In this document: positions 11,621 to 58,130 of the stretch, in pieces
How positions within the stretch are numbered: the first letter of the stretch is position 1
Layout of the letters: every line of letters begins with the position of its first letter
Origin: Gongronella butleri
Lineage: Eukaryota > Mucoromycota > Mucoromycetes > Mucorales > Cunninghamellaceae
Direction: 5' to 3'
Length of the DNA: 64,000 bases
Assembly: GCA_025201375.1 (NCBI GenBank)
Contig: JAIWZP010000040.1
Span: 62,001 to 126,000, forward strand
Notes under the pieces: model-generated
Databases searched by the model: none
Told to the model about the DNA's origin: nothing
Seen by the model: only the letters and a program-made list of their open reading frames with translations
Position numbers and translations under genes: made by a program

Positions 11621-11655
<35 letters not shown>

Positions 11656-11660
<5 letters not shown>

Positions 11661-13110
11661 CGAAGATCGGATGACCCAGTCCTATTACAATTTTGCATGA
11701 AATCAGGGCCAAACGGCCCATGAAGGCTAACTTGCCGACATCCCAACGCGATCTCTTCAAACCACAAGTGCTATTACCGCTGTTAATCACAAATTCATTT
11801 AAAGTGACTCGCGCGTCGATAGATTGCGCCCTTGTCGCGCGCGCTATTAAAATGGAGAAGATCTTACCCCCTTTTGCCGGGCGCGTCCTCCGCATCTTGC
11901 TCATCGGGTACTATATTTGAGCTAGAGGATGCGGAGCACAAAACACCAACGGTATCAGTTTTTTTCAGGGATCGGATCACGCAGTCTTGAAAAAATGCAA
12001 TTTTCATAAACCCAGGGCCAAAACAGAATCAAAACGATCCCTGAAGGCTAACTCGCCGAAAACTCGACGCGATGTTCCCAAATCACAAGCGCTTTTACCG
12101 CGCTTGGCTGCTGATTCATTTGAAGTGACTCATGTGTCGGGGCGCTTAGCCGTTGTCGCGGTACAAAGCCAAATGGTGCTGATCGTACCCGCTTTACGCC
12201 TATGAAACTAGCGCTTCATCAGAAACTTGTGCATCTGGTCCCCAATTTGTACCAGTTGACGGTAAACCCAATTCTTCAACGGTGTTAAGTTTTTTCGCGA
12301 ATCGGATCACTCAGTCGCAAAAAACCTCGAGGTTCGTGCTTGCTAGAGAAAATCCAGCGCCAAATAATATTTTACGCGTTTCTCCCGATGAGCTTGACCT
12401 TATAGCTCCAAATTCAGACCAGTAGATATTCGACTCAAAACTTCGATGATTCCAAGCTTTTCTAGAAATCGGGTCGCTCAGTCCTGAGAAAATGCATTTT
12501 CCATAAAATCAGGGCCAAAACAAAATTAAAACGGTTCCTGAGGGCTGACCCGCCTAGAACTGGATGCGATATTCTCAAACAACAAGCGCTTTTACCGCGT
12601 TTGCCCGCTGATTCAATTGAGGTGACTTTCGCATCGGGGCGCTCATCTGCTGCCGCGGTACAAGACCAAATGCTGGTGATTTTACCCCCTTTATGCCTAT
12701 AATACTGGCACTTCATCAGGAACTTGCTCTTTTGGTCCCAAATTTAGACCAGTTGATGGTAGACCCATTCGTCAACGGTGTTAACTTTTTCGCGAAGCCG
12801 ATTGCTCAGTCTCGAGAAATGTCGAAATTCGCGTTTGCTAGTGAAAACCCACCGCCAAACAATAATTTACGCGTTTCTCCCGATAAGCCTGAACCATATG
12901 GCGTCAAATTCAGACCAATGGATACTCGACCCAAAACGTCGATGATTCCAAGTTTTCCCAAAAATCGGATCACTCGGTCTTGAGAATGCATTTTTCGTAG
13001 GTTCAGGGCCAAAACGGGATGAAAACGATCCCTGAAGGCTAACTCGCTGAGAACTGAATGCGATGTTCTCGAACTACAAGCGCTATGCATCTTGTGACGA
13101 CATCCTTCCA
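11656..13110. repeat. tandem repeat array, period about 0.5 kb
   Basis: A diverged unit containing ATCGGATCACTCAGTC-like sequence, then CAGGGCCAAAAC, GATCCCTGAAGGCTAACTCG and ACAAGCGCTTTTACCGCG, recurs with starts near 11656 (partial), 11970, 12468 and 12963 (truncated). The spacing of the full copies is about 495-498 bases. Within a unit the ATCGGATCACTCAGTC-like block appears twice (for instance 11970 and 12301), so the unit may itself derive from a duplication. No open frame is preserved. A 40-base T tract (11622-11661) lies at the left edge. It resembles a small satellite or decayed element directly downstream of the ABC transporter. Confidence 0.7.
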
Positions 13111-20489: not shown

Positions 20490-21500
20490 TGAAAAGCAAT
20501 GATTTCGCTGTCATTAACAGGTGATTTAACAGATCTGCATTATTTCAATTGCTACGAAAATCTACCATCGTTGTGCTGACGCGTCACTTGTCATCTGTTT
20601 CAATTTCGGGGCCATTTAGACGCGCTTGTCCAGAGGTGATCTTAAAATTGTGCTAAAATGGCTGCAGCAGGCCAACAAGGCACTGCCGCGCCGCGAAACA
20701 CATAGAAGCGCGAAATGGCGAGCTAAAAACAATGAGTATAATTGAACTTGCGGCGGTCAATGGACCATCGGAGCGCGCTGCAAGCAAATCGAGAAATGAG
20801 CTATTTTGAGCACCCGAGAAGAAATTGAAAAACTAGGTCCGCGGAAGGACTCCAAACTTGTACACAAAAGATATCCCATGGTGAAACGACGAAAAACGGA
20901 AAAAAAGAGCGGGATTGATCTTTTCGTTGTCGAGCAATTCGCAATTTTAGTTTAAATTTCAAGCGCGATTTGCGCGGGAAGAACGCGCTTATAGAGCCGC
21001 GCCGACGCGTAATCGAGCAAGAGACACTCCAGGTTCATGGATTGGATTAGAAACAGACGCGTATCTCTCGACGACTGACGCGGTTTATCACGCGTCGAAA
21101 AATTATAATGATTTTGAAACCGTGTCCATTCCGCCAAAACTCAATTTTTTAAGAGATCACCAATACCCCCGTACGCTTCGAGTCGCGCTCTTTCTGGTGA
21201 TATGACTTTTAAGGCGCTGCACCAAGTCCTCGTCGACTTTGCCTTGCAAGGAAAAATCCCAGCTTTTCGCGTTTTACGTGGAAACCGGTCAATGGACCCA
21301 CACGTTTTATTGCATTTCTGTTGGTTACGAAGGCGAATTCATCATGTGTGTGAGCGGCGTATCGATCTGTGGATCTAAATTTCACGATTTTTCCTGAGTC
21401 GGCTGTACACCTTGGAAAATCCATGGTTTTGAAATCCACCATTTGCTCTACATCCAACGATCGCAGAGCTGCAAGGGTGGGCTCATTCGAACGAGAAAGC
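20490..21500 (+). repeat. dispersed repeat family A, long copy 1
   Basis: About 1 kb aligns in direct orientation with 57100-58110. Shared landmarks are GAAATGAGCT..TTTTGAGCACCCGAGAAGAA, AACTTGTACA, GGATTGAT..TTT, TTTATC.CGCGTCGAA, GATCACCAAT.CCC.CGTACGC and TCCTCGTCGACTTTG. The + strand keeps a frame (residue string SWIGLETDAYLSTTDAVYHA, then SKNYNDFE) shared with the copies at 14641-14860, 43398-43690 and 57640-57800. On the minus strand both long copies also align without indels over about 70 codons (AIKRVGPLTGFHVKR versus AIKPGGPLTGFRVKR). A decayed mobile element is likely; class unknown. Confidence 0.75.
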
Positions 21501-23655: not shown

Positions 23656-26600
23656 ATGTCCACAAAGACAATTGTTGCGGCATTGAAGGGCTCGTCGACC
23701 GATTCAGGCAAGCCGCTGCGCATTGCGCCCGACGCGACGCTCGAGGTTGTGCGCCAAATGGCGGCCGACGCGCTCGGCATCTGCGTGAATACGACCGATG
23801 ATTTGCTCTTGTACGACAGCTCCGAGCGGTTGCTCGGGGGCATGGATGATCTGGTCAAGCAGCAGCTCATCTTTGTGGATCTTCCTTGCCATTTAAAAGA
23901 CATCTCTGGCCCCTCGCCCAAGCCCGTCGTAGGCAATTTGTACGACCTGCTCCCCAACATGTAAGTCATCAAAAGAGAGAGAAAACAGAGAGAGAAATTG
24001 AACTGATTTTCCGTGTGGATTTGCAGCGATGTCGGCTGGAAAAAGCTGTTTGAGAAATATGGCCCTGTGGTGTCGGTCAATATTCTTGGCAACCACGTCA
24101 TTGGCACCAACAGCCCGCTCGTTGCCGAGCAATTCCTCAAGGAAAACGAGTATTTTACGAAAAAGGTAAATTCCGCGCCGACGGCATCGTGTTGCAAAGC
24201 TGATTTTCCTCTTTTTCACACGACAGATCGGCCCCAGCACCCTTGGTGAGGCGCAAAAGATCGCAGGCAATGGCCTGTTTACCTCGGACACCGACGCGCA
24301 CCACTGGAAGCTCGCACACAAGCTCCTCATGCCGGCATTTTCGCCGCGTGCAATCAAAGTATGTGCAAAAAAAAAAATGTCATTTGAATGAAACTGACGC
24401 ACTGACACGCGGTTTTTAAAAAGGCGTATCAAGAGGAAATGGGCCACATCACCATGCAAACCATTGGCATCTTTGATCAGTTCAAGCCTGGCGAGACAAT
24501 TGAGCTTCTCGACTGGACGACCAAGGTACAATTTTTTTTCAAAAGAAAACGAGCATTAATGAGATGCCCAATCCTTCCGGCTCCGAGCTACATAGCTGAC
24601 GGCTTGCCGCGTTTTTTTCGTGTCCAATTTGTATAGGTGACATTTGAGACCATTGGCCGCATTGGCTTTGGTTACGAGTTTGGCTTGCTGGACGCCAAGG
24701 ATGCGCCACCACACCCGCTGATCACGGCCATGAAGACGCTGCTTGAGCTTTCCGTGACGCGTGCGCAGCAATTGTCGTTCATGAAAAAGCTACCAACAGC
24801 GAGCAACCGCAAATTCGACGAATGCGTCAAATTGATGCACAACACCGTGCTGGAGGTCGTGCGTGAGCGCAAGGCCGGCCCAGATGCAAAGGATGCGCAC
24901 AAGGACCTGCTTGGCTTCATGCTCAATGCCATTGACGAGCACGACGAGGGCCTCACGGATGAAAACATTCGAGATCAAATCGTCACTTTTTTGATTGCAG
25001 GTAAAATCATATCTCAATGGCCCTTCTTTTTCCTCAATTCATCTTTTGCGCGTTTTGCTCAGGTCACGACACGACGTAAGTGGATCAATTCCTTTGGATG
25101 ACGCGCAATGCGGACATTTTAGTTTATTTCTCTTTGCTTTTCTAGGGCCAACACGCTTGCGTGGTTCTTTTACGAGCTTGCGCGCCACCCCGACGTCCAG
25201 CGCAAGGTGCTGCAGGAAATTGCAAATGTGGGTATCACGTCTGACAAGCTGCCAACCGTCGAACAGATCAGCAGCCTAAAGTACATGATGCAAGTGATTA
25301 AGGAGGTAAGTACTGTATTTTGGGTATAAAAATGATTGCTGGAGGGTGTAGACACTTGAAAAGGACGCTTTGGTATGGGCAGGCGAAGGGGCGGTGCAGA
25401 GCGCGACGAGAAATTATTAAAACGGATATTGATTTTTTTTTTTTTTCGCTTAAAAATAGTGTACGCGATTGTATCCGCCTGTACGCAAGCTGGCCAAATA
25501 TTGTCGCCAGGATTGCGTTGTGCCGTACGGCTACAAAATTCCTGGCAACACGGCGCTGCAAATCAATGTGTACGCTTTACACCATAACGAGGAGGTTTAT
25601 CCAGATCCCTTTACGTTTGATCCCGATCGCTTCACACCCGAAGAAGAGCAAAAGCGTTCAGCCTCTGCATGGTACACAAAATAGGAAAAAAAAAACACGT
25701 CGCCAGCAATTTTTTTTTTTTTTTTTTTACAATCTTTTGCTTTTTTCCAGGTTGCCTTTTAGCACGGGTCCGCGCGCATGCATTGGCCGCCCCTTTGCTC
25801 TTCAAGAAGCCAAGACAGTGGCCGCAATGCTGCTGCACAAGTACGAGTTCAAATACGGTAAGAAATATCCATGGACGACCGCGTTTTTATCCAAAATTGA
25901 CGCACTTTTTTTTTTCCTGGTGTAAACCAGATGGTCCACCCATTGAATTTGATCCCCATTCGGCAACAACCAAGCCATCGCATCTTGAGATGACGATTCA
26001 CCCGTGCACGGACTTTCCCGAGGCAACAGCGGACGCATCGCTGCCAAAAGTACAAAAAGCGACCTCTGTGCCGGCGCCGCAAGCCATGCCGCGCATGGCG
26101 ACTGGCCAGATGGACGCGTCTAAGCAGGCGCAGCTGCCCACAGTGACGTTTCTCTATGGCACGCAGACCGGCACGGCGCAGGATTATGCAAACCAGCTGT
26201 ACAACCAGGCCAAGGAATTCGGGTTCCAAGACGTCACGCTGCAAGACCTGGACAAGTGGACCGGGTTCCAGGGCGCCAAGTACGAGGCCCCGGCGCAAAA
26301 GGAGCTTGCGATCTTCTGCACCGCCACGTACAATGGCTGTCCCCCCGAGGACGCCGAGAAATTCGACAAATTCCTCGATAAAAAGCTGCGCGAGACCGAC
26401 CATGACAAGCACTTTGCTGGGCTCCGCTATGCCGTCTTTGGCGTCGGCAACAAGAATTGGCGCACGTACCAAAAGTTCCCCATAAAAATCGACGATTCGC
26501 TCGAGCAATTGGGCGCAACGCGCTTTTTCGCACGCGGCGAGGGCAATGCTGACGAGGACATGGATTCCGACTTTAACATGTGGTATGTACTTGCAAGAAA

Positions 26601-28357
26601 AAAAAAGGGGATGCGCTTCAATCCTTTTTTTTTTCGCGTCTTTTGCTATAATTCGCATTTTTGGTGACATTGACGCGACTTTTTTTTGCCACGCATTCTG
26701 TTTTTTACGCGCTTTTCAATGACATTTACGCGTCTTTTTATTTTGGTCTACGATTATTATAGGTCCGCGCATTTCTGGATGTCGACCTTGGATGCGTATG
26801 GCCTTGCAGCGTCGGTGGATAAGCCGGTTGTGCCCGTGGAGTCGACAAGCAAGGTGTCGAGCGCCAACATCAAGATCACGTATCTGAGTCCGAGCGATGC
26901 CGGGTTCCAGCAAGGCGTGGCAAACAAAAACACGACGAAATACGGCGAAAAGGCGTACATCAAGGTGAATCGCGAGTTGCAGCAATCCGGGTCGGGCAGA
27001 AGCACGCGTCACATTGAATTGGACGTGCACGAGCTGGCACCCGTGGCGAGTGCCAAGAACGGCGCGCTGTACGTAACGGGTGACCATCTGGAGATCCTGC
27101 CCGAAAATAATAGCAAGCTCGTCGAGACCATTGGCCTCAATTTCGGCTGGATCCTCGATTCCGTGTTCCAAGTGGATGCCGATGCCAAAAAGAGCGTGTC
27201 GTCGCGCTCGCTCGCCGCCAACATCGACGGCCCATGCACCATTCGCAATGCCTTAACTTATTTTTCTGATCTAACGTCGCCTCCAAGTCGTCTCCTCCTG
27301 CACTGCTTTGCCCAGCAGCTGCGCAGCGTCACTGACGATGCCACCGCAGACGCATTTGAGCAATTGATCATCCCGGACGCAAATGGCGTTGGTAAGTCTC
27401 GCCTAAAAACAAAGGGGAAATGCATTTTTATCTCTTTTGATGCATGGTTCTCATCTCTTCCCGAAAATAGATCCTTATCCAAAGTTCATCCAGGCCAATC
27501 GCACGCTGCTGGACTTGCAGTGCGCGTACCCAAAGGTCAAGGACTTTGATTTTAGCCAATTTCTTGCTGCGGCGGGCGTGATGCAGCCGCGTCGCTATTC
27601 GATTGCAAGCTCGCCGCTGGCGAACACGTCGCTGGCCGCGCTGGCAGTCGGCGTCGTCGACGACGTGGTGCAGAATCGCCATTATCCGGGTCTGGCGTCG
27701 TCGTACATGGCCAGACTCGATCCTACGCAAGGCGGCGCGCCATTGCCCGTGCGCGCCGCACTCAAACCGGCCAAGAGCACGTTTGCACTGCCCGAAGATA
27801 CGGAGGTGCCCATTCTCATGATCAGCGCGGGCACTGGCATCGCGCCGTTCATGGTGAGAATGCAAAAAATAGCGAAAACCCCGCCTTTTTTTCTCACTCT
27901 TTTTATTATTTCTGTCGTTGTGTAGGGATTCCTGCAAGAACGCAGTGTGCAAAAGCAGCAGGGTCAGTCTGTGGGCAACACGATTGTGTTTTTCGGTTGC
28001 CGTCGCGAGGACCACGATTATATTTTCAAAGAGGAGTTGGCGATTTACCAAGATCAAGGCCTGCTGACCGGACTGCACGTCGCGTTTTCGCGCCAGGAAC
28101 CGCCGAGCGCCAACAAGTACGTGCAGCACCAGATCCTGCTGCACGCGTCGGACGTGTGGGCTCTCATGCATCCTACCAATGGCGCCAAACCAGGCATCAT
28201 CTACGTGTGCGGTAGTGGCGCCATGAGCAGGGACGTGCGAAAAGTGTTCATCAATATGGCTAAGAGCTTTGGTGCAGCGTCAAATGACGACGAAGCCGAC
28301 CAGGTGCTCCAGGACTGGATCGATGGCGGGCGCTATAATGAAGACGTCTGGGGCTAA
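23656..28357 (+). CDS. self-sufficient cytochrome P450 / P450-reductase fusion (CYP505-like)
   Basis: Thirteen exons: 23656-23960, 24027-24165, 24227-24358, 24424-24525, 24637-25000, 25063-25075, 25146-25305, 25460-25671, 25751-25857, 25931-26582, 26763-27391, 27471-27853, 27926-28357, giving 1,209 aa. Domains: an unusual ~75-aa N-terminal module, a P450 (I-helix AGHDTTANT, ExxR ECTR at 405-408, heme loop FSTGPRACIGRPF with Cys486), an FMN domain (FLYGTQTGTAQDYA from ~584), then FAD/NADPH reductase (QPRRYSIASSP, ISAGTGIAPFM, VCGSG, C-terminal DVWG). Relatives hydroxylate fatty acids near the omega end using NADPH without a separate reductase. Exon 6 is only 13 nt but is needed for HDTT. Its last 1.08 kb is repeated at 34095-35170 (see the element entry). 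Confidence 0.93.
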
Positions 28358-28875
28358 AAAAAAAAAAAAAAAAGCCAAAAAAAAAGCAACATTTTCAAAT
28401 TCATTCTGTAAATAAATAAAATCTGTCCAATTTCATTCTTTCATCTGCCATGTAGGCATCTTACCGCGACGCGTCGCGACGTAACTATTTTGTTTGCATA
28501 AAGTTGAGATATAAAGTGAAGAATGATGGGGATTCAGGAACGCGTGTCCTGCAAGGATTGAAATTTTGCATCCCTCACCGATTGAAAGACTTGGCCACCC
28601 ATTCAATGGCAATAGTTGCCCTGTAAGTGATGTTGTGCCAAAGCTGGCCTTGTGTTCATGCCCATTAGGCCAAGGAGCCCGGCACCCAGGACCCTGAATC
28701 AGGGAATCTTTATTTAAAAAGCATTAAAAAGTGAAAATGCGGCCCAGCAAGCCAATGATTTAAATGGCGGCACCCTTTTGTCAAAATCGCAAGGTGCTTT
28801 ACCGCCAAAAAGGCGAATGCGCGCGCGTTTATTTTGGAGTCACCGCGCTGACAAACCGGGGGGATGAGTTGTTTT

Positions 28876-28908
<33 letters not shown>

Positions 28909-29233
28909 TGTATTCGTGTCACGACCGGATCCATGCAACACCCAAAAGGGGAAATTGAGCAACTCATGTTTATTCGGCAGCGCCCCGTCAGCTGGCGGAA
29001 TGTGAATTGTCCCTGTAGAAAAAAAAAAAAAAAAAAAAAGGAGGTTGAAACGAGCGCGTCGACGTCTTCCTCGTCGTTTCTTTTTTCTTTTACTGTTGCC
29101 ATGACGACGACACTCTTGCTACTATTGGCCGCTACAGCACAGTATGCGGCGGTCAGTAAAAAACGGCGGTCACGCTGGCGGGCGCTGTCCTTCTTTCTTT
29201 GTTATTTCTTCCTATAACACACTTTGGTTGACG

Positions 29234-32200
29234 ATGGCGAAAAAAGAGCCTATTAATCCTCGTAAGTGCAAATAACAGAATGAACCCCCTGTGCCTGACG
29301 CTTGTTTTTCGTAGCCTCGAATACCAAGTACGCGTCCATTGAGTCTTTTTTCAGTCCAAACGTAAGAAAACTTGTTTGTTGTGCGCGATTTTGAGTTCCA
29401 ACGCGCGTAACGCGTCTTTTTTGCTTCTTTTCTAGCGCTTCGCGGTTCTTGCTGACCAAGACCAAGCCGTAAGTCACTGGTCAACTCGGGATTGACGCGT
29501 TTTTCAAGCTTGTTTTGCTCCAAGTGAACGGATGGATGTATTTAAAATGGCATTTTGTCTCATTTAGGAACATCGAAGCGACATTGACCCTCCCGCGACG
29601 CCAACAAGCCAGGATGAAGTTGAAAACGACCAAGACGAAGCCTGGACACTCGTGGAACACAAGGTAATAGAATAGAGCATGGCCCCTTTTTTGCTTTTTT
29701 TTTTTAATCTTTTTCTATTTTTCAAAGCGTCGCCGTTCACAAGCGTCCACGGTGGACGTCCCGCCCGCACACCGCCCCGCTCAACGCCCGCGCACCCAAT
29801 CGCCTGGTTATACCATGAAAAATATGGTAATCGAAAAAGAAAAGGAGGACGTGCGTATAAAAGTGCTCACTTTTTTTTTTTTGAATGATCAGACCGAGGA
29901 TGAAGAAGTGCAAGAAGCTTTGCGCGTCAGCGCGCTGCTTGCGGCCAAAAAGGAGGTAAGAGAATCATTGTCAAGCGTGTTTTTTTTAGAGCGCGTTTCT
30001 TGGCAAAATGCAAAAACCGGCAAAAACGAAGAAAAAGAGCTCAAATTCATCTTGTGTTTTCCATCTGGTAGGTCGACCGTGATGCAGAGTGGCCACCATT
30101 GGAACGACACGTCGCCATGGATGACAAGGGCAAGAGCAAGCCCAAGTTGGCGACAAGCGCCGAGGAAACGATCCATGCGCCCACGACCAGTCCCGCTACC
30201 CCACGTAAGTCCAAGTAAAAGAGTGAACTCCTATGCCTGACGCTTTCTTTTCATAGCGCCCCATGCCAAACGTGGGACCATCGACTCATTTTTCCATCCA
30301 AACGTAAGAAAACTTGATCGTTGTGTGCGGTTTTGAGCTCCAACACGCGCAACGCGTCGTTTTTTCTTCTTTCTAGCGCTTCGCGGTTCTTGCTGACCAA
30401 GACCAAGCCGTAAGTCACTGGTCAATTCGGGATTGACGCGTTTTTCAAGTTTGCTTTGCATCAATTGAACGGATGGATGTATTTAAACTGCCTTTTGTCT
30501 CATATAGGAATCTGACAGCGTCACGGACCGTGCCGCGACGCCGACAAGCCAGGAGGAGGATGACAAGGACCAAGGTGAAGCCTGGACACTCGTGGAAAAC
30601 AAGGTAATAGAATAGAGCATGGCCCCGTTTTTGCGTTTTTTTTTTAATCTTTGTCTATTTTCAAAGCGTCGCCGCTCACAGTCATCAACGATTGACGTCG
30701 CGCCGGCAGACCGTCCGCCTCAACGTCCCCGCACCCAATCCCCCGGCTACACAATGGAAAACATGGTAATCGCCAAAGAAAAAGGAGGATGTGCTTATAA
30801 AATTGAGCATTAGCGCGCTCACTCTGCTTTTTTTTTTTTGAACGATCAGACTGAGGAGGAGGAACTTGAAGAAGCTTTGCGCGCCAGCGCGCTGCTTGCA
30901 GCCAAAAAGGAGGTAAAATCATCATTGCCGAGTGTGTTTTTTTGGGGCGTGTTTCTTGGCAAAACGCAAAAACGGCAAAAAAGAAGAAAAAGAGCTCAAA
31001 CATCTTGTGTTTACCGTCTGGTAGGCTGAGCGTGATGCGGAGTGGCCACCATTGGAACGACGCGTCGTCATGCATGACAAGTCCGACATCAAGGGCAAGG
31101 GCAAGGCAATAGCAACATTTGCCGAATCTAGCACGAACGCCGCCGCCGCAATTCATCCTTTGGACAGCAAGCCAAGCACAAGTGCCGTCGCTGCAATTCA
31201 TCCTTTGGACTGCGAAGCAAGCACGAGCGCCGCCGCCGCAATTCACCCTTTGGACAACGAAGCAAGCACGAGTGCAGCCGCCGCAATTCATCCTCTTGCC
31301 ATTGAAGATGAGATGACCGAGGATACCAATGAAGCGGACGAGGTACGAATTGGGGCGACCTGTGAAGGGATTTGTTGAGAATGATGGCTGACAAGCCTTG
31401 TTTTTGTTTAAAAAAAAAAGGCTGTTTATATGACAGCGAGCGACGACGAATTCGATGAAGCGGCGTTTGAGCTGGACGATGCCGAAGATGAGAGCGATTT
31501 GCAACCAGTCCCCAACTCCGTAGGCATCCCCACCATAAAAAGCCTGAAAATCGTGAGCATCATGGTGCACAAGGTGACGCCGCAAGGCTCGGGCCGGGCC
31601 AACCATGTGGCTGTCTGGTTTTTTGAAAGCAAAAGCAAGCCAGCGTCTTTTGTTTCCGGTCATGTCGCTGGTGACGGCCTCCATTTGAAGAGCTCCGCCT
31701 ACTTTGGTATTTGTGCCACGGCATCATCGGTTCTGGAGATGGTGACATTGTTGCGCATCATGCGCGTCCCCGACGCACAGCTTTCGTAAGCTCTTTTTCT
31801 TTCCGTCTCCCCCTTTTTTTCCTGACACAGCTCATATCGTCGTCTTTTTGTTGTAGGTTTTCAAGTAGAAACACTGTTTCGCGTCTTGGCGGCGGCCGAC
31901 TCGGCGCTGTGCTTTGGAAAATTCACGACGTCGAGGTTGATGCCGTGTGGCGATCGTTTGGCTTGGCATCGTCGTCAATTTACGACGTCATTTGGTCAAA
32001 GGCCGTCATATTCATCGGTGATGTTCATCAAAACGAGGACCGTGCCCGCTTCCTTGTGTTTGTTTTTGGATTGATCTTGGCCGATGGCAGTGTGGCTCCG
32101 CACCGGTGCAGTGACCAAGCCAATTGCTACTTTGAACGCCTCGAATTGGCCGCTCGAGACAAAAAAATGTTGGAGCTTGTGTTGGTCAATTGGGTCGCGG

Positions 32201-33519
32201 TCGGTGGCATCCCTTCCGACATCGCCAAATCCAGCACCGTGTTCCGCATACGTATCTCTGCTAGCCATCCGGAGAACATCAAGCTTTTCAAAGAAGGCTT
32301 GGCTCATATCAAGGAATTTTGCGATGATCTTCCGCCCAGGCTTGCAAAACTCGACCATTTCTTGGAGCAAAAGAAGCAGCCGCTTACGGTTCTCTCACCC
32401 GAGTACAATCAAGTTGATTTCACGACCTTTGTCACCGACCACGACGACGGCGAGCTTCGAGTGCTAGCGCAAGACGTGTATCGCATGGATACGTTCGCAA
32501 TCAACCCAATCCTCAAGGCTTTAGATATGGCACCAATCTCCTCCATTCATGAATTGAGTCTCCAAAAGCTCTTGGAGGGCCTGAAACGAGTCGATCAGCT
32601 TTGCACGGACAACCCAAACAGCGTCAATGGCATGCAACGAGCCCTGAGTGGTTACTACAAGCTCTTGGCCCTGCGCACAGTCAAGTTACCCCTAAAGAAC
32701 CGGCGAAAAATCGGCTTCCCGTGCCCAAAACCTGATTGCGACCGAAAATTCCTTAGCAACTATGACCTCGAGATTCACCAGCGCATGGAGCATGGCGCCG
32801 AGAAGCTGAAATGTGACTACGAATTTTGCAACCTGGAAGCAAACACCCGCGGACAAATCACAAAGCACGTGCAAGCATGCCACAAGAAGAACAAAAAGAG
32901 CCCGTACAAATGCTTCCACGCTCAATGCGAGTGCTATTTCAAGCATCCTCATCCTACCAACCACCCCGCCGCCTACCAAGAGCACGTGCTAAAATTCCAT
33001 GACGTCGAGATCGCGTTTCCTTGCGACCACCAAGATTGTGAAATGGTGTTTTCCACTGAACAAGACCTTGCGACGCACGCCCGCACCCATGAAGGCGACG
33101 CCAAAGTCATGTGCCTCTATTGCGATCGGCTATTCAAGGACGGCGAAGCTCGTGCCCAACACATGCGATCAAGCCACAAGGAAAAATTTGTCAAAGCCAA
33201 GTGGCAATGCCCCGACGGCGATTGTAACGTCAATTACGCTAGCAAAAAAATCAAAATTGTCGAAGACCATTACGACGCAGTGCACCGAGGCAAGGTGTAT
33301 CGTTGCCGCCATGACGGCTGCTGCAAAAGATATGCCAATCGCTCTGACCTCAAGACTCATAGGGTGGTACACACCAAGGGCAAATCGACATGTATTCTAT
33401 GCGCGAGACAAGTATTTTACATCAGACAGCACTATACAGATGTACACAAATTGTCGTTGGAGACCGCAAAGAAGCTGATGGAGCTATTGCACCCACCTCT
33501 TCCACAAGATGACCAATAA
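29234..33519 (+). CDS. LAGLIDADG-like homing endonuclease with C2H2 zinc fingers and duplicated PIP/UIM-like modules
   Basis: Fifteen exons: 29234-29261, 29315-29361, 29436-29468, 29568-29663, 29728-29826, 29893-29955, 30072-30204, 30257-30303, 30377-30409, 30508-30603, 30667-30765, 30850-30912, 31025-31342, 31421-31785, 31857-33519, giving about 1,060 aa. Residues 1-290 hold two copies of a cassette: SIESFF or TIDSFF followed by PN-RFAVLADQDQA, an EAWTLVE segment, RRRSQ.ST.DV and a UIM-like EEEELEEALRAS. A 15-residue repeat (AAAAIHPLD..) follows. Two LAGLIDADG-like motifs, VSGHVAGDG (463-471) and VFGLILADG (576-584), keep the catalytic-position Asp at 470 and 583; each precedes the expected helix/strand pattern (LELVLVNWVAVGGI, STVFRIRIS). 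Eight C2H2-type fingers end the protein. Yeast HO is the nearest known design, but no intein splicing domain is seen here. The exon 14 acceptor (A9-G) is weak. The nuclease assignment rests on motif and pattern, not on a search. Confidence 0.75.
29263..31075 (+). repeat. tandem duplication of a five-exon cassette (period about 940-957 bp)
   Basis: Block 1 (29263 to about 30118) and block 2 (30205 to about 31075) align exon by exon. Exons of 47, 33, 96, 99 and 63 nt recur with identical sizes, and the 33-nt exon is identical. Introns also match, for example GTAAGTCACTGGTCAA followed by GGGATTGACGCGTTTTTCAA in both. Start-to-start offsets run from 942 down to 939 and then rise to 957 and 953, so small indels have accumulated. 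The duplication includes introns and therefore arose at the DNA level. Confidence 0.92.
31139..31299 (+). repeat. 45-nt in-frame tandem repeat, about four copies
   Basis: Copies start at 31139, 31184, 31229 and 31274 and encode AAAAIHPLD or AVAAIHPLD followed by .(K/E)(P/A)STS. The last copy is truncated. All lie inside exon 13 of the endonuclease-like gene and keep the frame. Confidence 0.9.
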
Positions 33520-33544
33520 AAAAAAAAGGATATTGATTAGCCGG

Positions 33545-33563
33545 CTCGCGATTTTTTCGCGAG
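33545..33563. other. perfect 7-bp hairpin with T5 loop
   Basis: CTCGCGA, TTTTT, TCGCGAG begins 26 bases after the stop of the endonuclease-like gene. It could form a stem-loop in the 3' UTR. Function unknown; RNA polymerase II genes do not require such a terminator. Confidence 0.5.
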
Positions 33564-34084
33564 TTGGGGCTTTTGCGCTCGTTTCGGCGCGTGACGACTC
33601 GCTTTATGTCTTCGTTTGGGCCTCTAGGGTGCCTATTGTGCAATAGACGCGTAAAATTACCACCATAGCCCCGTGTTTAGTGTTGTTGAGTGCGATTTAT
33701 ACGCATGTTTCTTGATTCGCGTGTCAAAAAGCGCGTGTCGCCTCTCAGTGACCGGGGTCGGCATGGCCATTGTGCTTGAAAAGACAAAAATTTGTGAAAA
33801 AAGGCCCTATTTTGACGCTAGGAGCAAGTCCATGAAGAGCGAGAGCACGACCGGGCGCATGTTCTGTTCATTGAGATCGTAAGGGGTGATCTGCAGGTTG
33901 TCAGATTTTGGCGATATTCGATCGGCGATGGCACGTGCCACATCCACGTTACACGATCTCCAAGCGGCTGTATTTTTTGCCCCGTGACCATGTCGGGTGC
34001 CCATTGCCACCACCACGCGCACGAGCGCTCAGAGCGAAACATCAAAGAGTCTGTGTGTCCCCCACCTAAACATCACGCTGATCC

Positions 34085-35170
34085 AACAGCCTCACCAAGT
34101 CGTCTTCTCTTGCATTGCTTTGCCCAGCAGCTGCGCAGCGTCACTGACGATGCCACCGCAGACGCATTTGAGCAATTGATCATCCCAGACGCAAATGGCG
34201 TTGGTAAGTCTCGCCTAAAAACAAAGGGGAAATGCATTTTTATCTCTTTTGATGCATGGTTCTCATCTCTCCCCGAAAATAGATCCTTACCCAAAGTTCA
34301 TCCAGGCCAATCGCACGCTGCTGGACTTGCAGCGCGCATACCCGCAAGTCAAGGACTTTGATTTTGGCCAATTTCTTGCTGCGGCGGGCGTGATGCAGCC
34401 GCGCCGCTATTCGATTGCAAGCTCGCCGCTGGCGAACACGTCGCTGGCCGCGCTGGCAGTCGGCGTCGTCGACGACGTGGTGCAGAATCGCCATTATCCG
34501 GGTCTGGCGTCGTCGTACATGGCCAGAATCGATCCTGCGCAAGGCGGCGCGCCATTGCCCGTGCGCGCCGCACTCAAACCGGCCAAGAGCACGTTTGCAC
34601 TGCCCGAAGATACGGAGGTGCCCATTCTCATGATCAGCGCGGGCACTGGCATTGCGCCATTCATGGTGAGAATGCAAAAAAATAGCGAAATAACCGCCTT
34701 TTTTTCTCACTCTTTTTATTATTTCTGTCGTTGTGTAGGGATTCCTGCAAGAACGCAGTGTGCAAAAGCAGCAGGGTCAGTCTGTGGGCAACACGATTGT
34801 GTTTTTCGGTTGCCGTCGCGAGGACCACGACTATATTTTCAAAGAGGAATTGGCGATTTACCAAGATCAAGGCCTGCTGACCGGACTGCACGTCGCGTTT
34901 TCGCGTCAAGAACCGCCGAGCGCCAACAAGTACGTGCAGCACCAGATCCTGTTGCACGCGTCGGACGTGTGGGCGCTCATGCATCCTACCAATGGCGCCA
35001 AACCAGGCATCATCTACGTGTGCGGCAGTGGCGCCATGAGCAGGGACGTGCGCAAGGTGTTCATCAACATGGCCAAGAGCTTTGGTGCAGCGTCAAACGA
35101 CGACGAAGCCGACCAGGTGCTCCAGGACTGGATCGATGGCGGGCGCTACAATGAGGACGTCTGGGGCTGA
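34085..35170 (+). pseudogene. displaced 3' fragment of the P450-reductase gene
   Basis: This matches residues ~903-1209 of the P450-reductase fusion. Exon equivalents are about 34085-34203, 34283-34665 and 34739-35170, with both intervening introns retained. Splice sites and reading frame are intact, ending WG then TGA where the full gene has TAA. The P450, FMN and most of the FAD-binding region are missing, so it cannot work as a monooxygenase. Similarity stops at the stop codon: the 3' flanks differ completely. At the left edge divergence jumps: CGTCTCCTCCTGCACTGC in the full gene is CGTCTTCTCTTGCATTGC here (three synonymous changes), with more changes just upstream, against none in the next ~100 bases. 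That pattern suits a recoded cleavage site. Confidence 0.85.
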
Positions 35171-35519
35171 TCTTTAACAACGAAAAAAAAAAGAATAAAC
35201 GACGCGTTAATCTTAAATGAGTGACATCGAAGTTGAAATATGCGCCTTTTTGTGACAACAAAAAGAAAGAGCCAGTGACCTTGAAGATGCAATACGATTG
35301 ATACTGCGTAAAAGGTCGTTTGATGCATCGTTGCACCACAAAAGGCTGATGATCAATGAGCCAATGGCACACCCCAGGAGCCAATGGTGCTTTGAAGCCC
35401 ATCATTGGCCCATTGCCAATTTGGGATGCATGATTTTTCGGGGGGTGAGTTCCCACCTTTTTTTTTTTTTTCTGCGCCTTCTTTTCTCTTTATCTTTAAG
35501 CTTTTTGTATTTATATTTC
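35171..35519. other. intergenic spacer after the P450 fragment
   Basis: About 350 bases, ending in a T-rich leader before the phospholipase gene. In the homing model the first part would be the original 3' UTR of the P450-reductase gene. A poly-A signal-like AATAAA occurs at 35196-35201. Confidence 0.45.
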
Positions 35520-38500
35520 ATGGTGCACTGGCCGGCTCACTCTTTTTTCTTGCTAATCAGTGCTGCCTTGGGACATGGCTGTGGTGTGTAAGTACCAATG
35601 ACCAGACGATAAATGGATAATGGCCGGAATTCGTCCTTTTTGGTTGCTGACGAGGACGTTTTCTGCTTCTTTTTGACATTTTTATTTTCTGTCAATTAGC
35701 CTCGTTCACAACGAAGTGACACATCGAGCCATTGAATTGTTTCAGCCAACGAGCGCAATTGAACAGACATTCAGAGGTTATGTGACGGACCATCCAGGCT
35801 ACTTGCAAGCAGGCTCGTTCTTCCCCGATTGGGGCTACCAATGCTTGGGCAATGACCAGCAGGCTGAGGATGGTAAAGGAGCGCGCGCGGGCGCACGACA
35901 TCAAGGGGCTCGGTCCCGTTTCATCTGCCATCATTGGCTCACCTTTTTTTTTTTTTTTGCCCCCTTTTTGCCTAATAGCTCATTGGGCACCCTTTATCAA
36001 AGCAGCCATTGATCATATCCGCGACACGTACCCGGGCCCGTGGGGTGACGACAGCGACCACGTCAAGGTACGACCCAAAAAAAAAAAAAAATAAGAGAAG
36101 AAGAAAAAAAAGACCAAAAAAGGGACCACGCGCGCGCTCATGCGTCCCTGCTCGTGGCTCGTTGCTCCTTTTTTTTCTTGTTTCCAGGGTCTTGTGGCGT
36201 TTGTGTTGGGTGTGTTGTCACATGACGTTGCGGATGTCAAGTGGCACTCGCTCAATGGGCTAAAGGACTACTTTATCCAAGCAATGGCGCACATGGACTT
36301 TGACGGTGATGAGCAGGCGGCGCATCAGGTGGCCGACACGGGGGGCGAGGCCGTGCTAAGGCACAGCGCGCACCTTGATTATTTGGCGGATCAATGGGAG
36401 CTGCCGCTGGACGACATTCTGCGCATTTACGAGCGATTGTACAATGCTCACCCAGGCACCGCGGTGCCCAATGCCGAGCACGTGCGCTATTGCATGATGC
36501 GCGCCTTTGCAGGCATCAAACTCGATGTGGGGCTCGCCAAATATCTCTTTAATTTCTACGGCGCCAAATCGCCCTTTCTCGTCACACAATTGGACGACTA
36601 CCACAGCGGCGGTCCGTACAAAAATCAATCAATCCATCAAAAAAAAAAAAAACAAGAAAAAGAAAAAAAAGAGGATTCTCATACTCATTTTTTGTTTGTT
36701 CTTTTCAATAGGCCTGCAGGACATGGCTGCCAGTGTGACCAATTGCTACAGCCAAGCCATTGGCATGATGCTGCAGGGGGAAAAAGTGCACGAGCCACTC
36801 TGTGGCCTTTATTTTGACAACAACAAGCATGTGCGCTTTGCACGCAATGCAACGACGCGCGGACCACGATGTCACCACCACACCAAGGGGCACGAAATAG
36901 ACGTGTCCAAACGCGTCAGAGCCATTGTCGATGAAGACACGGGTGTGTGGACGTTTTCGGCCATTGAACGCGACGACGCGCCTGCCGCAGCTCTTTTGAA
37001 TTTTCAGCATCCATTTACACTCCACCAGAACGGCGCAGCCGATGAACTCGCCAAGAAAATCGAGAATGACGCGCAATTAGCGTCAATTGACGGCAAAAGT
37101 GCAAAAGACGAGTTTACGACGTGCCACGTGGCGGATGGTGACCACGACGACGAGACAGTGGTGTCGATGGGGTCGTCGCTCGGCGGATTTGGCCACGCCA
37201 TGGTGTCTGGTGATTTTGACGGCGACGGGCGCCAAGAATTGGTGGTGTCGTCGCCGTACGACAGCCCTGATCTGGCATTGATCATGGCCGGAGCGGTGTT
37301 TGTGATGGATGGAAACCAAGAAAGCGAGGATGACGCTCAGGCACGGCCGCATGACGAAAAAGGCAAAAACGACAAAGCGAACGCGCGGCACAAACTCCGC
37401 GGGCGACGGCGGCATGTTTCACTTGGTGGAACCGTCCCTGGTGGCCGGTTTGGCTGGGCCATGGCCGTCGTCGACATGAACAACGATGGCATTGACGATT
37501 TGGCCGTTGCAAGTCCCTTTGGCCCGGACGGAGGCCACGTTGACGTCTTTTACGGCAAAAAGGGCCAAGGCCTGTCGCCAAAACGGCGCATTCGCATAGA
37601 AAGACCCTCGTTTTCTCTCCTTGGCAATGGAAAATCGGGTTATGGGGCGGTCCTCAAGGGTCTGGAGCAACAACACGCACTAGCCATTGGCTGCCCGCAT
37701 TGTCCCAATGCGCACGGTGACCGCCAAGTATTATTAAAATGCCAATTTTGCCACTTTTTGTCGGCTCGCGCCGCCAGGATACTCACATTCTTATTCTACC
37801 TTTTTTTTTTTTTTTTTGGCAGGGAGGCATTGTCGACGTGCTGACGTCGGTGGATGACGTGCCAATGACGCTCGAGAGCCCCACACCCATGGCATACGCG
37901 CATTTTGGCGCGTCCATCGCCCCTTTGGACGGCACGCTATTGATCGGTGCGCCAGGCACCCGTGTTAATGACCAACCCCAAGCTGGCCAAGTGTTTGCCT
38001 TTCTAAACGGAAAGGTCGTCAGGTCCATGAGCGGAAAAACAGCCTTTGGTCGCTTCGGAAGGTAAAAATAGGGCTGCGGAACAGAAAAAAAATGAAAAAG
38101 AAAAAAAAATTCAGGGGGGGGGGTTGTCGTCATACGTTGTTCGTGGTGTGAGAAAAAAAGACAGGTGTGTGTGTGCAACACGCATCACCATCATGCTTGC
38201 ATGTTTTGCATTTTTGATTGACACGCTTGCTCACGCGCCCGCACCCCCTTTTTTTTTTGTGTGTGTTTCTCGAAGCTTCCTAGCCCAATGGCAAAATCAA
38301 TGGCTCGCCATTGCAAGCCCCATCGAGGTAGGATAAAAAAAAATGGCCCTTTATCCGAGTGCTGGGAAAAAAAGAACAAGGAAGAACGGCTAGAAAAAGT
38401 GGTGGTATGACATTTGGGCCATTTTTTTTTCTCACCACCGAATTGTTGTTTTTGGCATTTCTGTTCCTGTTGCTTTGCATTTTGTGTCACTCGGTTTAGG

Positions 38501-43720: not shown

Positions 43721-45172
43721 CTTGTTGAGTTTGCTTTGCCCTGCTGGGGTGAAAAATCACTATATTTTTTATCGCGATTCCATCTGTGACTGAGGGGCGT
43801 TATGATAACCATGTATCATTTCCTTTTGTTATTTTGGCCCCATGGTTCGTACTTTGTAGAATAGACCTGGAAGTCGCGTGTCATATAGACCGTTGACGGG
43901 AAAATCTGTATTTCCCCATAAATTCACACTTTCGACTGTGGCGCGTCAAGTTGCCATTCGATCATTCGCTCCAAACAATTGCATTAGGCTACTACTGTAT
44001 TTTGGCGCGTCTTTTTCCAACTAGGCGCTGAAAACCAAAAGTCAACTGGATCTCGAATGCCTCCCGGCCTTTTCCCTCTGACTATTTCGCTGCGTCTTGT
44101 TGAACAAGGCATTGAAGAAATCGGAGGTGGGCTGGATAGTTGAGAGGATAAATTCGAAATCTCGACGTTTCTACAAATGCGCAGCAGAATTAAACGCCAC
44201 AAATCATCATGGTTGGGTCACCCAAACGCTACATATTATGTTACATCGATGCGGCGTTTCTTTTGAAAAGACATTCAAACCAAGAGTCAATCGAGTTGTT
44301 GTGCAGGTGAATCCAAAATCTTGATACTTTCACAAATCCAGTATGGATTCCCAAAATATTTGGTGGATCGTCGTGAAAATGGTAGCGATCGAAAGAGACG
44401 TACTGTACTCAGTTGTCATTTCCTGATCGTTTGCTTGGCTGATGGATGAACTTTGCACGCTTGCAAAAGTCGATCAAACATTGGATTAATTTTCAACCCC
44501 ATTTTTCTCGGCAACCGGAAAAACAACCAGAGGCGCTTTTGACAAATGTCAAAGACATCTGTTGAATCTCTATCAAGTGAAACCAGTTTCGACGATGGAT
44601 GACCAAAACTGGCAGAGAAAATCCACTTTGTCATCAAAATCTTTGTTCGCGATTTGCTCGACAACGGTCTAGTCGACCCCCGGTTTTTATACCACCAGTT
44701 TTACTAACGAACAGGGACCAAAGCATCTATGATAATGGAATGACTCGCAGCGCGCTAGCTTGGGTTTGAACATTTTGCATCGGTCATTGTTTCTGCGGGT
44801 TGCAACCCACGCACTCAGCACTCAGCACACAAAAATGTGCAAAATAAAAAAATAAAAAAATGAAAAAATAAAAATTCCATGCAATCCACGCACCTTAATT
44901 TGGAAGTGTCAAACCTTAAATTTTTGCAAAAAAAATCTTGCCCAAAGTAGGCACTTTTCGAAGTCGATCGCCGTTCATGCGTCACTCTTTAGGCTGCCGG
45001 TACTGTAGAACTGTATTTTCTTAATTAAGGTGAAATAATGCGACCTGTCATTTTGTGTGCCAATAGCAAATTGCCGGAGTATCATATGTAACCTGTTTGG
45101 GATGCATTGATCACTCGGAGTTCGAAATTTCCCAAATTTGGCATTTTCTGAGATTGAAATGTGTGACCCCTG

Positions 45173-45468
45173 AGTGACCCCTGAATTTTTCAAATGTGGT
45201 CGTAGCGCAATGGGGTTTTAAGCTTTTTTGTTGCAAATTTTGCCCTGAACGCGATGCAGATATTTTTGAGTGGGGTCGACCATGCAGATGGACAGATGAA
45301 TGCAAAATAGTACAAATAGGAGGTTTTTGGCATTTTCGAATGCCAAAAAAAATCGGGCGGGTCGACCGTCTTCTTGAGCACTGGGCCAAAGTTTATGTCG
45401 TGACGCATTTTTCATCAACGGGCAGGTAGGCTGTGAAAAATTTTCTGGAGGCACAACAGACCGGCAAA
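45173..45468. repeat. dispersed repeat family B, copy 2
   Basis: Direct-orientation partner of 1-290. GACCCCTGAATTTTT is at its left edge, TAAGCTTTTTTGTTGCAAAT follows, and GGGCAGGTAGGCTGT with TTTCTGGAGGCACA is near the right edge. A 72-codon minus frame (45190-45408) is open in this copy only. Confidence 0.75.
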
Positions 45469-45886
45469 GATCGAAAAATCACGCTCTTTCGATTTTCAAA
45501 GGCAAATGTGCATGTGCTTTGTGTATTGAATCCAGATGCATGCATGCAGCAAGTATGTTGTTTTATTATGATAGGTGATGATGGTGTGCCTCAGATGTTT
45601 TTACGTATGCTATGATAGGAGAGACGCGTCACGAGGATGAGATGGAATGAGGGAAACAGGGAATACACTATGTCAACAACAACGAAACTGTTATCTTGCA
45701 TTCTTCTCGTCTCCTGCATGTTTTCAATGCGCGTCGTCGACGTGAAAATGCAGCATTGGAAATTAGCCTGCGCATGCGGCGCACACTTGTTTTGGTCCTT
45801 GCGTCAAGTTTGAGTATGGTCAAACGACGACAAGTATTGCAGAGACCCGAAAAAAGTGGCATTTTAGATGAAGCTTTTATTTAAAT

Positions 45887-57059: not shown

Positions 57060-58130
57060 TTAAGTGGTTCTTTAGCGAGCTTTGGTGCGCAAAGGCGAGT
57101 GGACTGATTTCGCTGTAATTTATGGGCGATTTCACAGGAATGTATTAATTCAATGGCCAAGAAAATCTGCCATCGTTTCGATGACGCCTCATTTCGCATC
57201 TGATTCAATTTTGGGATCATTTGGACAGCTATGACCAGAGATGATCTTAAAATAGTTAATTTTCGCAAACATTGACTACAACTGATCAACTAAGCACGGC
57301 AGCATCGCGAAATCCATCGTAATCTGAAATGGCAAGCTAGAAACCATGAGTATGATTGAATGCGCAGGTGTCAAAAGTCACTGGAGGTGCGCTATATGCA
57401 TATCAAGAAATGAGCTGTTTTGAGCACCCGAGAAGAAGTCGAAAAAGTAGGTCCGCCAAATCGCACCAAACTTGTACATAATATACTTCGAATGACGAAT
57501 CGACGAGAAATGGCAAAAACGAACCGGATTGATATATTTGTTGGCGAGCAATAAGCAATTTTCGATGAAACTTCAACGGCGAATTGCACTGGAAAAACGC
57601 ATTGCAGATCTATTTTTGACGCGTCCATCAGAAAGAGAAGCTCCAGGTACATGGATTAGATAAGAAACAGACGCGTGTAACTCGACACCTGACGCAGTTT
57701 ATCTCGCGTCGAATAGCATATATGGTTTTGAAAGCCCCGTCAAAAGTGCCAAAATCAGTTTTTCTATCGATCACCAATGCCCACGTACGCGCCAAGCCGT
57801 GCTCTTTCCGTTGATATGACTTTCGAGACGCTGCGACAAATCCTCGTCGACTTTGTCCTGGAGTGAAATTTCCTAGATTTTTGCGTTTTACGCGAAACCC
57901 AGTCAATGGACCCCCAGGTTTTATTGCATTTCTGTCGGTCTTGGAGGCGACTTCGCCATGTGCGTGAACGGCGCGGCGATCTGAAGTCCAAAATTTGACG
58001 ATTTTCCGTCGGTCGACTGTACCTCTTGGGAAATTCACGATTTTCGAAAATGGTCATTGCCCGGTGACGAACGCTCGCATCACAGCAAGAGTGAGCTCAT
58101 TCGAACGAGAAAGATTGCCACTATTGGTTC
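57060..58130 (+). repeat. dispersed repeat family A, long copy 2
   Basis: Direct-orientation partner of 20490-21500, about 36.6 kb away. It has GAAATGAGCTGTTTTGAGCA, CAAACTTGTACATAA, GTTTATCTCGCGTCGAATAG and CCTCGTCGACTTTGTCCTGG at matching positions. The shared + frame (CNSTPDAVYLASNSIYGFE) is broken here by a TAA after TWIR. The minus frame 57628-58038 aligns with minus 21209-21426 of the other copy. Positions 58131-58841 show nothing further except a T/C-rich leader. Confidence 0.75.

Follow-up and report, generated by a model that had tools for sequence, protein, structure and literature searches.

A putative WHO-like homing element beside a P450-reductase gene of Gongronella butleri, with relatives in the same genome

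Why should the 3′ end of a P450-reductase gene be present twice on the same strand, with a single nuclease-like gene placed between the two copies? The question is raised by a 64 000 nt stretch of Gongronella butleri DNA (contig JAIWZP010000040.1, positions 62,001 to 126,000), hereafter called the window. In the WHO elements of budding yeasts, as far as the account consulted goes (PMC7282813), a sensitive allele is cut, the nuclease gene is copied in together with a resistant gene end, and the old end is left as the homology arm for the next round. With a probability of roughly 77%, the arrangement in the window and its counterparts elsewhere in the genome represent homing elements of similar logic, which does not imply that they belong to the WHO/HO family.

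The repeated gene end and the gene between its copies

The host gene (24634–28357, plus strand, with its 5′ start further upstream) codes for a P450-reductase fusion protein with the Pfam domains p450, Flavodoxin_1 and FAD_binding_1, which we take to be of the CYP505 type. Its last part constitutes a direct repeat, 27283–28357 against 34095–35168, on the same strand with a spacing of 6812 bp and 97% identity (query positions 1–1073 of 1075). Two introns are common to both copies, poorer homology extends back to about 27266/34078 (95.5% across 1114 columns), and the homology stops at the host stop codon. Copy 1 (27266–28357, plus strand, strong identity from 27283) is joined to the working gene and is presumed to be supplied by the element, while copy 2 (34078–35170, plus strand, delimited by alignment) is an open frame that lacks the gene’s 5′ part and is presumably the displaced old end. 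Loci are labelled here by contigs of the same G. butleri genome, the window locus being C46. Beyond the window, a genome search with the repeat fragment matched only a paralogous gene in C25, at 75% and 71%, and C19, at 69%, and the fragment is therefore not a dispersed repeat.

One intact gene of 15 exons (29234–33519, plus strand) is located between the copies. It was spliced by eye, free of stop codons, into a model of 1060 aa, and begins 877 bp past the host stop codon (787 bp by the start of the NCBI model, 30 codons upstream at 29144), with introns of its own. The NCBI protein P0002 (“hypothetical protein BC940DRAFT_108017 [Gongronella butleri]”, 1090 aa) is identical in its C-terminal part to the 1060-residue model, and carries 30 additional N-terminal residues. 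The original prediction, a 1.08 kb 3′ end of a P450-reductase gene occurring twice, 6.8 kb apart, in the same orientation and about 97% identical with its introns, was confirmed by alignment in coordinates, orientation, spacing and identity, and its single gene between the copies was borne out. Its non-yeast fungal host is G. butleri of the Mucorales, as identified by matching NCBI proteins.

Differences between the two copies of the host gene end are mostly synonymous. Over the full 939 coding bases there were 28 synonymous and 8 replacement changes (pS 0.128, pN 0.011), and 22 and 5, respectively, when the divergent first 12 codons were left out, so that both counts together gave pS 0.11–0.13, pN 0.007–0.011 and pN/pS 0.06–0.09. 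Polarised by the C25 paralogue as outgroup, 15 changes fell to copy 1 and 18 to copy 2, with 8 ambiguous. Since neither copy is visibly decaying, the pattern would fit two long-separated functional alleles recently brought together.

At the break, the stretch of raised divergence (27266–27305, plus strand, codons DLTSPPSRLLLHC), delimited by alignment and 20-column identities, is a candidate recognition or cut site. Identity at the break was 14 and 17 of 20 columns in the window and 15, 16 and 18 of 20 at a second locus, C17, with 17–20 of 20 beyond. The lower identity could reflect an altered cut site in the element’s version of the gene, but the edge of an alignment can look alike.

LAGLIDADG motifs and domain structure of the protein

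The protein carries two LAGLIDADG-type motifs, of which the first, FVSGHVAGDG (31649–31678, plus strand), was recognised by eye, and the second, FLVFVFGLILADG (32050–32088, plus strand), lies at the centre of the profile matches to the PDB. In a family profile of six members including that of the window, spliced across a common intron position, the G-D of motif 1 and the D-G of motif 2 were invariant in 6/6 sequences, and thus the aspartates of both motifs (AGDG and LADG in the window protein). Searched against the PDB, this profile gave LAGLIDADG endonucleases in 44 of 47 rows (E-values up to 10), mostly I-CreI variants but also I-OnuI derivatives, I-AniI, I-DmoI and I-CvuI. The three remaining rows were the unrelated 5cwo, 8fbi and 6f4c, and a reversed-profile control returned three rows, none of them LAGLIDADG. 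The top row (9.8e-7) was a single-chain protein for which two weak matches (0.17 and 0.11) were summed, and the next row stood at 0.0018.

In scans of single sequences, Pfam found LAGLIDADG_3 in one of the six members (3.9e-5) and no LAGLIDADG match in the window protein alone, and NCBIfam found LAGLIDADG in none of the six; over the whole genome, the only LAGLIDADG_3 match among those listed was the family member at C23:451252-451494. The C-terminal part of the window protein holds eight C2H2-type zinc-finger patterns by pattern count (32717–33450, plus strand). Pfam zf-C2H2 scored E 1.1e-4 and 22.9 bits there, below the 25.2-bit cut-off, and the region matched a CTCF chain at 9e-10. On the basis of motifs and profiles, assignment of the protein to the LAGLIDADG endonuclease type is supported, in agreement with the predicted LAGLIDADG nuclease with zinc fingers.

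The N-terminal part contains a tandemly duplicated unit (29288–31099, plus strand; 83% DNA identity), the two copies of which have diverged under purifying selection, with dN/dS of about 0.30 over 125 codons. Two motifs of the unit are labelled PIP-box-like (SFF) and UIM-like on our own assumption; a Pfam scan of the window protein found neither a UIM nor a PIP-box-like motif. No Hint/intein domain was found in Pfam scans of the window protein and family members, and a genome search for Hom_end_hint gave, among the matches listed, a single one, C16:397165, which fell below cut-off and lies at a distance of about 176 kb from the member of the family found on the same contig.

The same protein could in principle be a regulator, in which the LAGLIDADG fold is kept for DNA binding only, as in WhiA, and combined with zinc fingers, the flanking duplications being coincidental. 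The nuclease activity is predicted from sequence, and the LAGLIDADG region also stays open in family members without duplications, both of which would suit a regulator. Against it stand the motif aspartates, both invariant in all six aligned members, and the association of the family with duplicated host-gene ends, which together make this explanation highly improbable.

Recurrence of the layout and alternative explanations

Genome searches identified at least 16 family loci (C46, C75, C67a, C67b, C34, C21, C23a, C23b, C79, C16, C29, C44, C17, C1b, C22 and C1a), around each of which at least 10 kb was inspected. At seven of the 16, the nuclease gene is placed between direct repeats that include sequence belonging to one side of the adjacent gene. 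The WHO-like layout that had been predicted for the window recurs at other genes of the genome. On the 3′ side, the window repeat of the CYP505-type gene (97%) is accompanied by C17, a FAD monooxygenase gene (Pfam FAD_binding_3; 95%), in which homology starts inside the codons for GDAAHATSPNAGLGAN, leaves all 73 last-exon residues identical and runs about 110 bp beyond the stop codon, and by C22, in which only the 3′ untranslated region (3′UTR) of an eEF2 gene (Pfam EFG_IV/EFG_C) is repeated (78%).

At the other four loci the repeat is from the 5′ side. C1b involves a gene for a ClpB/Hsp78-type AAA protein (by eye and Pfam AAA/AAA_lid_9; 87%), with homology ending just past the codons for DPVIGRDEEIRR, and C75 an amino-acid permease gene (Pfam AA_permease; 82%), with homology ending in intron 1 shortly after the codons for LKRNLKPRHL. 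C44 in turn involves a secreted-protein gene with a paralogue in C18 (72–76%), with homology that stops where exon 1 does, and C67a the region upstream of a permease gene (Pfam AA_permease; 76%). The codons at the breaks of C17, C1b and C75 presumably encode conserved family motifs.

The pattern was first noticed at C46, C75 and C67a. Of a further six loci, retrieved afterwards for their nuclease genes, four show the layout (C44, C17, C1b, C22), and C29 and C1a do not. A survey of direct repeats (at least 150 bp, 1.5–10 kb apart, E≤1e-10) covered 318 kb in 16 regions, and all ten matches spanned the nuclease core, in 7/7 regions with a match. If the placement is randomised inside each region, the same result has P = 0.003, which is a partial control, as the regions were picked around nucleases.

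These data bear on whether the gene ends were duplicated by ordinary segmental rearrangement, with permease-nuclease pairs moving as units and the nuclease as a passenger. A divergent orientation is common to the three permease loci C34, C67a and C67b, in which gene and nuclease may alternatively have been duplicated as a pair, and C67 resembles an inverted duplication. The layout, however, involves six unrelated host families, both gene ends and both nuclease orientations, and the 318 kb contained no nuclease-free direct repeat at the survey thresholds; segmental duplication is accordingly considered improbable.

Among the five closest loci (C46, C75, C67a, C67b, C34), four adjoin amino-acid permease genes. 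With 16 permease loci counted in the genome, the chance that a random locus falls no more than 5 kb from one is about 0.6% by our own arithmetic, and C67a and C67b may be one event. The proximity points to a target preference, and this speaks against break-induced ectopic mobility, by which the nuclease would cut new genes and its own DNA would be captured during repair, with local duplication of the broken end, in a transposon-like manner. The window copies, too, resemble long-separated alleles (pS about 0.12, pN/pS below 0.1) and not a fresh duplicate. In favour of ectopic mobility, hosts differ among relatives: in a phylogeny that includes 11 of the 16 members, the supported clade of C17, C1b and C44 has three unrelated hosts and the clade of C46 and C75 has two. 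WHO10 of Torulaspora globosa is likewise described as relocating to new loci in the part of PMC7282813 drawn on here. On balance, ectopic mobility appears unlikely.

For WHO-like homing, the loci appear to be of graded age, as the state of the nuclease gene tracks flank identity at six of them. The gene is intact in the window (97%) and has open LAGLIDADG exons at C17 (95%) and C1b (87%), but it has stops at C75 (82%), is apparently broken at C22 (78%), and is a relic at C67a (76%).

Several observations weigh against homing of this kind. The evidence is the sequence of the genome of one strain. Leaving aside the top row, in which two tandem copies within a single chain are summed, matches to the PDB were weak (0.0018 at best), the LAGLIDADG rows all fell around or after motif 2, and two structure predictions gave mean pLDDT values of 36 and 30, too low for a fold call. 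The window’s copy 2 shows no visible decay, and its description as displaced is based on the layout. Divergence was not raised at the break of C1b, with 2 differences in the first 62 bases, and C44 falls off the age trend, since its flanks are 72–76% identical and yet the exon coding for its second LAGLIDADG domain is open. Nine of the 16 loci (C34, C67b, C21, C23a, C23b, C79, C16, C29, C1a) had no flanking duplication in the stretch fetched and were counted as misses. Coding sequence is lacking from the repeats of C22 and C67a, which hold the eEF2 3′UTR and the permease-upstream region, respectively, and the intronic end of the C75 homology indicates that breaks also occur outside coding sequence.

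The members at C21, C23a, C23b, C79 and C16 are very divergent, with the LAGLIDADG region open and no flanking duplication seen, and are candidates for domesticated nucleases. At C17, the reading frame 5′ of the LAGLIDADG region contains a CUE domain (PF02845, 9.5e-5, above the Pfam cut-off), CUE being a ubiquitin-binding fold. First-domain exons of the C44 member could not be joined in frame, and the first LAGLIDADG motif of C29 was not found in the fetched sequence. The NCBI protein P0001 (G. butleri) includes the domain of the C79 paralogue. C25, situated beside the paralogous P450-reductase gene, was considered as a further member and left out of the family count, since only its zinc fingers match (TFIIIA-like by eye); its 20 kb were kept within the 318 kb of the repeat survey. 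Searches beyond this genome found no relatives, with no match for a protein search or for viral contigs and one protein each from two others (both G. butleri), although such searches require common 5-residue words and similar length, and one scored only part of the candidates, so that absence elsewhere is unproven.

Other features of the elements and their surroundings were recorded. A block 5′ of the window nuclease ATG (29077–29161, plus strand) is also present in the elements at C67a (78%) and C34 (74%). Sequence just 3′ of the stop codon (33519–33741) has one relative (70%), C75 6061-6285, downstream of the C75 permease gene and away from the C75 nuclease, which is perhaps a trace of an older element. 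With regard to terminal inverted repeats, as in DNA transposons, the inverted pairs listed near the element were of the homopolymer kind, both the 17 pairs of at least 30 bases in 26000–37000 and the longest 25 of 79 pairs in 27900–34800. At C1b, another direct repeat, which is short (174 columns, 71%; C1 978676-978844 and 983860-984021), lies just inside the long one in non-collinear order. On the same contig, 1154189-1155701 holds pieces that resemble two distinct members of the family arranged one after the other, much as in a WHO cluster. At C67, 771–776 kb, a convergent permease gene pair has a nuclease remnant outside each gene, as if inverted-duplicated.

Three dispersed repeat families were seen in the window. 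The first (11654–13084), tandem-structured with units of about 500 bp, is also found in regions C75, C16, C25 and C44; the second (20500–21499 and 57105–58113, 74% to each other) has relatives in C75, C16, C25, C34 and C23b; and the third (1–271 and 44294–45523) is common to C23a, C16, C34, C67 and C79. Similar sequence downstream of C16 and C79 was first considered as a shared target gene and then taken as a dispersed repeat; a Pfam scan on the C16 side gave nothing but a weak match to acyl-CoA oxidase at some distance.

Proposed mechanism and relation to known homing systems

Under WHO-like homing, the element would consist of the LAGLIDADG/zinc-finger nuclease gene together with a single host-gene end. 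A sensitive host allele would be cut by the nuclease, and where this is clearest, at C46, C17 and C1b, the cut would fall inside conserved coding sequence or at its border. The break would be repaired from the chromosome that bears the element, and the repair would bring in the nuclease gene and the element’s putatively cut-resistant gene end, and the host gene would stay whole because that end is copied in along with the nuclease. The recipient’s old end would be left beyond the nuclease as a fragment, providing the second of the two homology arms when the cycle is repeated. The replaced part would be the 3′ end in the window and, as a mirror image, the 5′ side elsewhere.

The closest known systems are the WHO elements of Torulaspora and Lachancea. 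WHO proteins, together with HO, combine LAGLIDADG motifs with C-terminal zinc fingers, and WHO genes are transcribed apart from the host gene in either orientation and occur as many divergent paralogues and pseudogenes, according to the sections of PMC7282813 used here. The WHO arrangement, in which the nuclease is flanked by the complete host gene on one side and by a duplicate of its 3′ fragment on the other, is shared by C46 and C17 for coding ends and by C22 for the 3′UTR only, with four further loci involving the 5′ side. This 5′-side capture is absent from the WHO account, as far as PMC7282813 was consulted, and the fingers of WHO/HO are described there as atypical, Cys-X-X-Cys and Ash1/GATA-like, in contrast to the C2H2 fingers of the Gongronella family. 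The latter further differs from WHO in its many own introns, its hosts other than FBA1, one CUE-domain member and its occurrence in Mucorales instead of budding yeasts. WHO/HO proteins have a Hint/intein domain, unlike the Gongronella family, in which none was found.

PI-SceI (VDE) was not among the 47 PDB rows while chains of I-CreI, I-OnuI and I-DmoI matched, and the likeness to HO/WHO is one of described features. In their logic the elements are of WHO type, and two features, the intein domain and the type of zinc finger, speak against their membership of the WHO/HO family. With the intron- and intein-encoded LAGLIDADG endonucleases (I-CreI, I-OnuI, I-AniI, I-DmoI) the family shares the LAGLIDADG motifs and profile matches; in contrast to those homing elements, the gene lies beside and not inside the host coding sequence, self-splicing is not needed, and a zinc-finger tail is present. 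Literature searches, the 2024 WHO review (doi 10.1016/j.semcdb.2024.04.001) aside, found no earlier report of nuclear WHO-like elements in Mucoromycota in the papers that they listed.

More tentatively, and at somewhat less than even odds, the family may represent an independently evolved nuclear class of homing elements in Mucorales. Either gene end, 3′ or 5′, would be held hostage in many gene families, and ubiquitin- or PCNA-binding N-terminal modules would have been recruited to steer double-strand-break repair; the open-frame members without duplication may have been domesticated, as HO was in yeast. A second system of the same logic, intein-free and in a phylum far from the yeasts, would if true mean that such a design does not depend on an intein ancestor for its origin. 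It would add 5′-side capture and about 16 loci of graded age in one genome, supply a new family of LAGLIDADG/C2H2 nucleases, and make the steering of repair by such elements testable.

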